This document shows positions 12,837 through 50,235 of a stretch of DNA of 53,780 bases, one piece after another. Where the stretch lies: assembly GCA_903822595.1 (NCBI GenBank), contig CAIJPS010000007.1, forward strand, positions 1 to 53,780, read 5' to 3'. Below the pieces are notes generated by a model. The model was not told where the DNA came from and did not search any database. It saw nothing but the letters and a program-made list of their open reading frames with translations. The translations under genes and the position numbers were made by a program. The stretch comes from an uncultured Chlorobiaceae bacterium. GTDB taxonomy: Bacteria > Bacteroidota > Chlorobiia > Chlorobiales > Chlorobiaceae. Positions within the stretch are counted from its first letter, which is position 1, and the number at the start of each line of letters is the position of its first letter.

Positions 12837-13251
12837 AAAGCTGAAACCGAAGCTATAAGCCGAATTCTGTGAGTTACCCTGCAAAAACAGGGTAAGGCTG
12901 CAGCCATTTATCTGATGCGGCTTACCCGAGAACTCTCCTTTCGGAATTGAACGGGCCGCTCTCTTCCCCCGGAGGGAAAAGTCCTCTTATTTAGCCTTGC
13001 TTCGGGGAGGTTTGCCAAGCACATTCCATTACTGCAATGTCTGGTGGTCTCTTACACCCCCGTTTCACCCTTACTGCGGTTGCCCGAAGCGGTTTGTTTT
13101 CTGTTGCACTCTCTGTGACAAGCGGCTTACGCCGTCATCCCCGGGCTTGAGTCTTGCGATTCTCGACCGGCACCCTGCCCTGTGAAGTTCGGACTTTCCT
13201 CCGCGCAACCTCACGGCTGCACGGCGACTGCACACTTGCGGTTTCAGCTTT
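12837..13251 (-). ncRNA. rnpB: RNase P RNA, bacterial type A
   Basis: The minus strand carries the two universal RNase P RNA signatures. Near the 5' end is GAGGAAAGTCCGAACTTC (forward 13186-13203 region), and near the 3' end is ACAGAATTCGGCTTATAG (forward 12853-12870). The ends pair: 5' AAAGCTGAAACCG (forward 13239-13251) is complementary to 3' CGGTTTCAGCTTT (forward 12837-12849), forming a long P1 helix followed by a U run. That helix and U run probably also serve as the terminator. The RNA is the catalytic part of RNase P, which matures tRNA 5' ends. Exact ends are estimated from P1 to within a few bases. The zinc-ribbon protein gene lies directly upstream on the same strand. Confidence 0.95.
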
Positions 13252-47177: not shown

Positions 47178-48446
47178 ATGGCTCAAGAACAAAAGAAATC
47201 AACCCATCAGGCTGAAGCCGTAACCTATCTGCGCGCTTTTGTGCCGTTTTTCTGGAAAAATTTTATTCATGACAGGATTTTTCTCGGTGCGGGCTCTCTG
47301 GCTTTTCAGACGCTCCTCTCCATTGTTCCTATTCTTGCCATTATTCTTTCAATCCTGAATGTTTTTGTTGTCTTTGCACCCTTCCGACGCTCTCTTGAAG
47401 ATTTTCTTGTCCAGAATTTCACGCCGGGCGCAGGTACGGTGCTCAATAACTATCTGACGGATTTTATCGGAAAAACCTCCAGCGTCCCGATTCTCGGGGG
47501 TGTATTTCTCTTTATTATCGCACTTTTTCTTATTTCAACGGTCGATCATACACTGAATGAAATTTGGGAAGTTCATGCACCCCGCAAGGCCCTGCAGGGT
47601 TTTACTCTCTACTGGACAGTACTGACGCTCGGGCCGGTGCTTATCGGAAGCAGTCTTGCCGCCAGCTCCTATGTCTGGTATACCGTCTTTACCGACGGCC
47701 CGTTGCTTGAAATGAAAACCAGTCTTCTCTCTTTTTTTCCCTTCATCAACTCGATTTTTGCCTTTTTTCTGCTCTATATGCTTGTTCCAAACCGTCGGGT
47801 CCGGTTTGTTCACGCTTTTTCAGGTGCTCTGCTCGCTGCGGTTCTCTTCGAGCTCTCAAAGCGATGGTTTGCCTTCTACATTACTCATGTTGCGACGTTT
47901 GAGCATATCTATGGCGCATTGTCGGTTATTCCGATGCTTTTTTTCTGGGTCTATCTTGGCTGGATTGTTGTGCTGACCGGTGCGGAATTTGTTTTCTGTC
48001 TTGGTGCGCTCAAACCTGCTGGCCAGGTTGCTGAACTCTTCAACCCCTTGCGTGGAGTGCCCGAGATTCTTTCGGTTCTTGCTCATATCTGGAGTGGCCA
48101 GAAGAGTGGCAATGCCATGAACATGAAGAAAATTCTGAAGGTTGTTCAGGGCCTCACCCCATCCGGTGTACGAAAAATTGTTGATATTCTGCTGCAGAAC
48201 AATCTGGTACATGTGACTGTCAACGGTGATCTGGCTGTCAGCCGCGATCTTTATCTTCTGACTCTTTATGATCTTTACACCATAATTCCTGCTGGTTTCT
48301 GGAGCGATGAAAACGGTTCGCTGATTTCAGGAGGTAATAGCGTACATTTGGAAACGATCAGCAGGGGAGTAACGGAGTGCCTGAAAAGCAGTATGGATCG
48401 GCCCCTTGCACCCTTGTTGGAGGACATTAATCAACCGAAATTATGA
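47178..48446 (+). CDS. YihY/BrkB family membrane protein
   Basis: A 422-residue protein. RIFLGAGSLAFQTLLSIVPILAIILSIL is the family opening. Further helices include VFLFIIALFLISTVDHTLNEIW, VLTLGPVLIGSSLAASSYVW, FINSIFAFFLLYMLVP, FSGALLAAVLFELSKRWFAFYI, and GALSVIPMLFFWVYLGWIVVLTGAEF. A soluble C-terminal tail of about 140 residues with winged-helix-like segments (VRKIVDILLQNNLVHVTVNGDL) follows. The family was once annotated as ribonuclease BN, which is obsolete. The stop overlaps the dnaX start (ATGA). Confidence 0.92.
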   Translation: MAQEQKKSTHQAEAVTYLRAFVPFFWKNFIHDRIFLGAGSLAFQTLLSIVPILAIILSILNVFVVFAPFRRSLEDFLVQNFTPGAGTVLNNYLTDFIGKTSSVPILGGVFLFIIALFLISTVDHTLNEIWEVHAPRKALQGFTLYWTVLTLGPVLIGSSLAASSYVWYTVFTDGPLLEMKTSLLSFFPFINSIFAFFLLYMLVPNRRVRFVHAFSGALLAAVLFELSKRWFAFYITHVATFEHIYGALSVIPMLFFWVYLGWIVVLTGAEFVFCLGALKPAGQVAELFNPLRGVPEILSVLAHIWSGQKSGNAMNMKKILKVVQGLTPSGVRKIVDILLQNNLVHVTVNGDLAVSRDLYLLTLYDLYTIIPAGFWSDENGSLISGGNSVHLETISRGVTECLKSSMDRPLAPLLEDINQPKL

Positions 48447-49648
48447 GTTATCAGGTTATAGCCCGGAAGTACCGTCCAGCAAAATTTGCCGATATTACCG
48501 CACAGGAGCATGTTACCCGTACCATCCAGAATTCGCTTCGCATGGGTCGGGTCGGGCACGGTTATATTTTTTCGGGATTACGTGGTGTTGGTAAAACAAC
48601 AGCAGCCAGGGTTTTTGCCAAGGCGCTGAACTGCCAGAAGATGATGGAGGATGCCGAGTACCTTCAGCAGGTTACCGAACCTTGTGGAGAGTGTGAAAGC
48701 TGTCGGGACTTTGATGCGGGCACCAGCATGAATATTGCAGAGTTTGATGCTGCATCCAATAACAGTGTCGATGATATCCGTACCTTGCGGGAGAATGTCC
48801 GCTATGGGCCACAGAAAGGAACCTACCGGGTCTACATTATCGATGAGGTGCACATGCTCTCTATTGCAGCGTTCAACGCATTTTTGAAAACGCTTGAGGA
48901 GCCTCCGCCGCACGCTATTTTTATTTTTGCCACCACTGAACTGCACAAGATTCCGGCAACCATTGCTTCCCGTTGCCAGCGTTTCAACTTCAAGCGCATT
49001 CCGCTCGAGGAGATCCAGAAACAACTGCAGCTTATCTGTGATGCCGAGCAGATCACGGTTGATGCCGATGCCCTTCAGCTTATCGGTCGCAAGGCTCAGG
49101 GTTCTATGCGAGATGCGCAGAGTATTCTTGACCAGGTTATTGCATTCTCCGCCGAGAACGATCATACAGGAAGCATCAGTTACCTTGGTGTTGCTGAACT
49201 GCTGAACTACATTGATGATGAGCACCTCTTTGAGGTCACCGATGCTGTTGCGGAGCGCAATGCCCTGAAGATGCTCAACGTTGCGCAGTTTGTGATCAGG
49301 AACGGATATGACGAACAGGATTTTCTTGAAAAGCTGATCGAGCATTTGCGGAATTTTCTGGTGGTACAGAATCTCTCATCCACCCGCCTGGTTGAACGTC
49401 CCGATGCGATTCGTGAGCGCTACAGCCGGGATGCGGCTAATTTCCCCCCTTTTGCGGTCATGCAGATGGTTGACTTTCTTCTGCTGACACAGAAAGAGCT
49501 GAAGTTTCAGTTTGAATACCAGTTTCGTTTTGAACTTGCGCTTCTGAAATTGATTGACATCGTGCATGCCGCTCCATTCGCAGTCATAGCGGCGGAACCA
49601 CAGCCTCAACTGCAGGCTCAAAAAAAAAAGCACCTGACAAGCCACTAA
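48443..49648 (+). CDS. dnaX: DNA polymerase III clamp-loader subunit DnaX: zero-frame (gamma-type) product
   Basis: A 401-residue clamp-loader ATPase. Walker A is GLRGVGKTTAARVFAKALNC. The zinc cysteines are in CGECESC, Walker B is VYIIDEVHML, sensor-1 is FIFATTELHKIPATIASRCQRF, and GSMRDAQSILDQVI is the sensor-2 region. The zero frame passes through a run of ten A (49620-49629) and ends at TAA 49646-49648, giving a short gamma-like protein with the tail QKKKHLTSH. The remaining C-terminal coding sequence continues in the -1 frame (see next entry). ATG overlaps the stop of the upstream YihY gene. Confidence 0.95.
   Translation: MSYQVIARKYRPAKFADITAQEHVTRTIQNSLRMGRVGHGYIFSGLRGVGKTTAARVFAKALNCQKMMEDAEYLQQVTEPCGECESCRDFDAGTSMNIAEFDAASNNSVDDIRTLRENVRYGPQKGTYRVYIIDEVHMLSIAAFNAFLKTLEEPPPHAIFIFATTELHKIPATIASRCQRFNFKRIPLEEIQKQLQLICDAEQITVDADALQLIGRKAQGSMRDAQSILDQVIAFSAENDHTGSISYLGVAELLNYIDDEHLFEVTDAVAERNALKMLNVAQFVIRNGYDEQDFLEKLIEHLRNFLVVQNLSSTRLVERPDAIRERYSRDAANFPPFAVMQMVDFLLLTQKELKFQFEYQFRFELALLKLIDIVHAAPFAVIAAEPQPQLQAQKKKHLTSH
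49620..49629 (+). promoter_or_regulatory. dnaX slippage / -1 frameshift site (A10)
   Basis: Ten consecutive A residues, read CAA AAA AAA AAG in zero frame. Loss of one register (or an RNA that is longer by one A, or shorter by two) moves reading into the -1 frame, which is open to 50235. A run of this kind in dnaX is known to be a slippage site in Thermus thermophilus (A9); E. coli uses A AAA AAG with a hairpin. A perfect 6-base hairpin (AGCAGC 49652-49657, GCTGCT 49663-49668) lies 22 bases downstream, which is far for a stimulator. Slippage by RNA polymerase is thus the simpler reading. Confidence 0.75.
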
Positions 49649-50235
49649 AAAAGCAGCCAAGTGCTGCTGCGCCACTTTCCGCACCATTATCCTCGCCCTC
49701 ACTTTCACCCGAACCTGTAGCGAAGCCCTCCGACAGCGGGGAGCTTGATCTTGGTTCATGGCAAAAAAAACTCTCCAGTTTTGCCTCAAATCCCGTATCG
49801 AAGCAGCAAATGCTCAATGTGCCCTCCGAAACCATGCGCACTACTGGTGCCGAGGCTCCTGAACCTGTTGCTGACCTTGCAACACTCAAGGTTGAATGGC
49901 ACCAGTTTCTTGATCATGTTGCCAAAAAAAACCGGAACTTAATGGCAACGCATCTGCAATCCTGCGAACTGGTCGCCTGTAGTCCAGTCGGAGTGCTCGA
50001 CATTGCCTGTTGCCGAAAGTTTTCCTTCGAAGAGTTGCAACAAGAGAGAGTGACGCTTCAGCAGGAACTTTCAGTGTTTTATGCCCTGCCACTCCAGCTT
50101 CGTATCCTCTATGACGCAGAAAAAGATGCCTGTACCAAAGAAAAGACGGTTTTTACCCTTTTTCAGGAACTGTCACAGCAGAACGAGGTCATCCGCTTTC
50201 TTATTACGGAGTTCGGAGGTGAGCTGGTCTATTGA
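49630..50235 (+). CDS. dnaX: DnaX tau C-terminal part, -1 frame (no own start)
   Basis: From codon GCA at 49630 the -1 frame reads APDKPLKKQPSAAAPLSAPL, a proline/alanine/serine linker. It then continues through WQKKLSSFASNPVSKQQML to a domain with LKVEWHQFLDHVAKKNRNLMATHLQ and FQELSQQNEVIRFLITEFGGEL. This is the linker-plus-domain plan of the tau C-terminus, which binds the polymerase alpha subunit. Fusion through the A10 site would give a protein of about 597 residues, a normal tau length. No separate ribosome site serves it; an internal ATG at 49810 lies mid-linker. Sequencing error in the A run is the main alternative. Confidence 0.85.
   Translation, partial: APDKPLKKQPSAAAPLSAPLSSPSLSPEPVAKPSDSGELDLGSWQKKLSSFASNPVSKQQMLNVPSETMRTTGAEAPEPVADLATLKVEWHQFLDHVAKKNRNLMATHLQSCELVACSPVGVLDIACCRKFSFEELQQERVTLQQELSVFYALPLQLRILYDAEKDACTKEKTVFTLFQELSQQNEVIRFLITEFGGELVY

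Follow-up and report, generated by a model that had tools for sequence, protein, structure and literature searches.

Predicted transcriptional slippage at a conserved A10 run in the two-frame dnaX gene of an uncultured green sulfur bacterium

The dnaX gene of Thermus thermophilus is expressed through transcriptional slippage on a run of nine A residues (Larsen et al., 2000, cited in PMC5009743 and PMC1088944), and the two lysine tRNAs of this species have been taken as favoring slippage over ribosomal frameshifting (2016 review, PMC5009743). Antonov et al. (2013; PMC3711429) described 17 dnaX genes from 12 genera that consist of two ORFs and obtain tau through recoding, for which they proposed slippage; nine of the 17 carry A10, and the Chlorobi members given there carry A9, A8, and A7. 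This gene type was restated by Atkins et al. (2016; PMC5009743), with Chlorobium phaeobacteroides as a candidate for ribosomal frameshifting. Beyond the enterobacteria and Thermus, most bacteria were considered to be without dnaX frameshift signatures, and possibly without gamma (2012 review, PMC3290774). The gene layout examined here is thus already published, Chlorobi included (PMC3711429). Added here are a survey of 88 species, a switching tau frame, a test of the two adjacent stops, the lysine tRNAs, and the breadth of the pattern in Bacteroidota; in the open-access papers searched, the supplement of Antonov et al. aside, no mention was found of a run that stays fixed as the tau frame switches, of the three-frame conservation of stops in this group, or of the spread through Bacteroidota.

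The window (the whole stretch of 53,780 nucleotides analyzed here, from an uncultured Chlorobiaceae bacterium) contains a dnaX gene in two frames joined at an A10 run (Table 1). The window has no other run of ten or more A or T, and the 3.04-Mb genome has 13 separate runs of this kind in all. The zero frame finishes with CAA AAA AAA AAG CAC CTG ACA AGC CAC TAA, its stop codon starting 16 nt and ending 19 bases past the run; the third (+1) frame closes earliest, 5 nt past the run, and both non-tau frames are therefore closed within 19 bases. The -1 frame is free of stops from the run to position 50235, and the joined product has 597 residues. A sequence-only reading of this DNA had given the A10 run, the zero-frame end 19 bases on, the open -1 frame with a tau-like C-terminal domain, and product sizes of 401 and 597 residues; these points agree with the sequence, with the predicted frames and, for the tau-like domain, with the profile match and codon-position bias given below. 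The early TGA of the third frame was absent from that reading.

Table 1. Features of the dnaX locus, with positions in the window.
Feature	Position	Strand	Evidence
Zero-frame dnaX: AAA+ ATPase, lid, domain III, 401 aa; predicted gamma-like product of unslipped mRNA	48443..49648	+	Pfam, NCBIfam, 1jr3
A10 slippery run, zero-frame phase C.AA AAA AAA AA.G	49620..49629	+	A9-A11 in 88/88 relatives
A_AAA_AAG heptamer, in frame within A10; possible -1 ribosomal shift site	49624..49630	+	Sequence
Third (+1) frame TGA; would terminate gamma from A9 or A12 mRNA (397 or 398 aa)	49635..49637	+	
Zero-frame TAA; would terminate gamma from A10 mRNA (401 aa)	49646..49648	+	
-1 frame: Lys/Pro/Ala/Ser linker and tau C-terminal domain	49621..50235	+	
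6-bp hairpin, not conserved, probably incidental	49652..49668	+	

Around the junction, two more A8 runs lie in the tau-specific frame, at 49763-49770 (WQKKL) and 49924-49931 (AKKNR), where slippage would truncate tau; they seem incidental, since the length of the first differs among relatives. Upstream, a 422-aa ORF at 47178-48446, presumably YihY/BrkB-like, shares four bases (ATGA) with the dnaX start, an overlap that suggests translational coupling. An RNase P class A RNA gene lies elsewhere in the window, at 12840-13244 on the minus strand (Rfam RF00010, 207.9 bits), and the Rfam search returned no family at dnaX. Two other sense A10 runs of the same genome, within a 627-aa ORF (L244, G000:C23:20792-20801) and a 564-aa ORF (L259, G000:C74:68946-68955), are possible further slippage sites.

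The zero frame matched Pfam PF13177, PF22608, and PF12169, i.e., the AAA+ domain, the lid, and domain III, along with the 397-residue NCBIfam model PRK14955 (E 3.6e-251) and the E. coli gamma structure 1jr3 (E 7e-83); by domain content it is a complete predicted gamma. The -1 frame matched positions 430-620 of NCBIfam PRK14954, a 620-residue single-frame model (E 3.9e-65). In comparison with 54 relatives, its C-terminal domain differed at codon positions 1, 2, and 3 in the ratio 1107/864/3093, a bias which indicates that the tau frame encodes a protein under purifying selection; on these sequence comparisons the -1 frame is a genuine tau coding sequence. A PDB sequence-profile search with the tau C-terminal domain gave no significant match. 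An AlphaFold model of this region (mean pLDDT 78.5) retrieved the E. coli tau C-terminal structures 5fku_E and 2aya at ranks 3 and 4 in Foldseek, with probabilities of 0.90 and 0.85, weak E-values of 0.04-0.05, and DnaA domain I ranking above them; a second structural comparison placed DnaA domain I first (4tps, Z 10.1), and E. coli tau was absent among the matches listed. The predicted fold is therefore supportive of a tau C-terminal domain, not decisive. Annotation models divide such genes into a gamma-only (PRK14955) and a full-length (PRK14954) kind, treated separately, with the consequence that tau is easily overlooked.

Within the order, 98 genomes were sampled and 90 gave a strong dnaX match; G071 and G075 were left out, their matches ending near a contig end, and the remaining 88 dnaX genes, the window's included, were read. 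Among the relatives, L033, from an uncultured Chlorobiaceae genome, is 95% identical in dnaX, and it is on dnaX relatives that the source is placed among the green sulfur bacteria. The alignment of green sulfur bacterial dnaX that the sequence-only reading had proposed bears it out: in every one of the 88 genes, an A run separates domain III from the tau domain (A10 in 79, A9 in eight, and A11 in one), none of the 88 has a run shorter than nine, and tau is encoded at -1 by 73 genes, one of them assigned from the open frame alone, and in frame 0 by the other 15. The run occurs in more than one codon phase. A lysine-rich peptide was considered as its cause and rejected, as other conserved lysine columns of dnaX use AAA in 14-77% of genes and are freely AAG.

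It is very improbable that the two frames reflect an assembly error in a truly single-frame gene, or a gene broken by a frameshift mutation, even though homopolymers are error-prone and most of the sampled genomes are fragmented assemblies. The -1 layout recurs in 73 of 88 species, the single-contig genomes G002, G016, G025, and G086 among them; both stops are conserved and purifying selection acts on the tau frame; and the window's genome holds one full dnaX copy, no second being found. Sequencing error and pseudogene were rejected on the recurrence in relatives and the codon-position bias. Since single-contig genomes also occur among the in-frame genes (G001 and G020), the difference in frame between species is not assembly noise; such noise could still account for an individual case like L113, which has one extra base ahead of the run.

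On a tree built from the upstream 1100 bases of dnaX, the tau frame changes 11 times, and at least nine of these changes are forced by supported branches. Exactly A10 is found in 14 of the 15 genes with in-frame tau; the frame was therefore changed by indels outside the run, and run length is the conserved trait. These observations also bear on phase variation at the DNA level, in which replication slippage would alter the run and cells would differ in gamma and tau. Long homopolymers do mutate rapidly, and runs of A9 or A11 do occur in a few of the genes; against this stand exactly A10 in 79 of 88 species and an origin of the frame switches beyond the run in 14 of the 15 genes with in-frame tau. 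A contingency locus is hardly to be expected in a gene essential for replication, and phase variation is given very little credence here. The sequence-only reading had held that relatives with one continuous frame would speak against two products from slippage. Such relatives exist, namely these 15; however, they retain the run and both adjacent stops, and slippage is for this reason not refuted by them.

In 86 of 88 genes, a stop follows the run within 30 nt in each of the two non-tau frames; elsewhere in these genes, at other codon boundaries, two stops occur at a baseline of about 7% in the tau regions and 13% in the gamma region, and synonymous resampling of the tau codons predicts 15.6 of 88. 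Because relatives share descent, the counts were rechecked on spread representatives: among 20 with less than 80% identity, 18 have two stops where 2.1 are expected. The +1 frame by itself has a stop within 30 nt in 86 of 88 genes, against 48.0 expected. Since this frame would go unread in a -1 ribosomal shift, which has no need of its stop, the retention of the stop indicates mRNAs in all three frames; such a pool points to slippage, not to a -1 shift, as its source. What is observed directly is the anatomy of the locus, together with the fact that its run, its two stops, and its tau frame are conserved.

Transcriptional slippage at the A10 run is very probably how this two-frame dnaX gene is expressed. 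It is supported by a run fixed at 9-11 A in more than one phase, by the retention of both stops, and by the switching tau frame; the view of the sequence-only reading, that two products arise via the A10 run and most simply by RNA polymerase slippage, thus finds support in the comparative data. RNA polymerase and the nascent RNA would realign on the run and produce a pool of mRNAs in which the A count is 10, 11, 9, 12, or another number. The unslipped mRNA would give gamma with the tail KKKHLTSH; one extra A, as well as A8 or A14, would lead into the tau frame; and A9 or A12 mRNA would meet the TGA five bases on and give a second gamma. Tau, with its C-terminal domain for polymerase binding, would tether Pol III cores, and gamma would be the clamp-loader core alone. 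In the 15 in-frame relatives, slippage would yield gamma rather than tau. We infer the occurrence of slippage, the predominance of insertions, and the product ratio alike.

Recoded tau always lies at -1 and never at +1 (85 to 0; 73 genes of the order and 12 of Bacteroidota), which is expected from a -1 ribosomal shift and equally from slippage biased toward insertions; an explanation by slippage therefore requires that insertions are favored. Insertions on A7-A11 are cited as exceeding deletions in efficiency by a factor of two or more, and multiple insertions are cited as predominating when the Thermus run is placed in E. coli (2018 paper, PMC6260861). The same paper also contains a point against slippage, in that E. 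coli RNA polymerase is less slippery on A than on T runs. The A8 and A7 of two Chlorobium species (Antonov et al., 2013) are short for efficient slippage and count against it as well.

A programmed -1 ribosomal frameshift at A_AAA_AAG, with the zero frame giving gamma and the shift giving tau, is the most credible alternative to slippage; besides the exclusive -1 position of recoded tau, it can draw on the heptamer itself, which is in phase in 77 of the 88 genes of the order, the window's included, and on Chlorobium phaeobacteroides as a named candidate with E. coli-like stimulators (Atkins et al., 2016; PMC5009743). Yet a ribosomal shift requires A6-G alone, and A9-A11 is retained. The hairpin behind the window's zero-frame stop (6 bp, 5-nt loop) lies in a 70-nt fold that is unremarkable (z -0.91), and a stem at its position occurs in 7 of 88 relatives, which is the chance rate; the hairpin exists, as stated in the sequence-only reading, which had doubted its stimulatory role, and it is rejected as a stimulator on its chance frequency and lack of conservation. 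One of 88 genes has a 5-bp stem spaced as in E. coli, and downstream folding does not surpass that of synonymous variants (mean z +0.74, 88 genes). An SD-like stimulator upstream of the run was likewise rejected, pairing being at chance level: the duplex energy in the window is -2.5 against a null mean of -2.4, and SD pairing reached p < 0.05 in 5.7% of the 88 genes, i.e., without enrichment. The window's genome has tRNA-Lys genes for both UUU (L200) and CUU (L202); matches to the CUU tRNA-Lys occur in 98 of 98 genomes of the order, where weak matches may be other tRNAs and the anticodon is confirmed for the window's genome alone. With both lysine tRNAs present and no conserved SD or hairpin stimulator, slippage is favored, and ribosomal frameshifting as the main route appears unlikely; a minor share of tau from -1 shifting at the embedded heptamer is possible.

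Outside the order, a run of at least nine A lies in the same linker in 45 of 61 Bacteroidota dnaX genes of the genome collection and in two of three from Ignavibacteriota, fractions that are not unbiased estimates since the sampled loci are best matches to the query; several Bacteroidales dnaX genes are without a run, and none of 15 dnaX genes from other phyla or unassigned has one of nine or more. The 45 run-bearing Bacteroidota genes come from six named classes and unclassified records, show the run in all three codon phases, and have stops in both other frames in 41 cases, where 16.9 are expected; tau is at -1 in 12 of them. As a further point against ribosomal frameshifting, the run is kept in these relatives and A_AAA_AAG is in phase in only eight of the 47 run-bearing genes from Bacteroidota and Ignavibacteriota. 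These comparisons suggest that programmed production of gamma and tau is the rule in green sulfur bacteria and frequent among Bacteroidota, a breadth that bears on the question why gamma is retained. It is somewhat more probable than the contrary that a slippage-expressed dnaX was ancestral to Chlorobiota, Bacteroidota, and Ignavibacteriota, and that selection keeps a run of about ten and both stops and is nearly indifferent to the templated frame. The indifference would follow from slippage efficient enough to supply both products either way, and the tau frame would consequently have moved by drift, repeatedly, between 0 and -1. That the templated frame switches while the run stays fixed amounts to a natural experiment on slippage efficiency.

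Among the known systems, the window's gene is a two-ORF dnaX as described by Antonov et al., with a -1 layout at the DNA level, poly-A at the junction, tau by predicted recoding, and a genuine tau C-terminus; nothing essential differs. Shigella mxiE (PMC1088944) resembles it in the fusion of two ORFs by homopolymer slippage for a long product; that gene is unrelated and encodes a transcription activator, its mRNA has a U run, and slippage is required for the longer protein. With E. coli dnaX the window shares A_AAA_AAG in frame and two products of equal domain content; unlike E. coli, it has neither an upstream SD nor a close hairpin, its genome has two lysine tRNAs in place of a single AAG-reading one, and the roles of the products are reversed. 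With T. thermophilus dnaX it shares at least nine A after domain III, close stops in both non-tau frames, and two lysine tRNAs; the difference is that tau is templated in T. thermophilus and gamma arises from slippage, whereas in the window it is tau that would need the slip. The Thermus layout itself, with tau templated in frame 0, is found in 15 of the 88 relatives.
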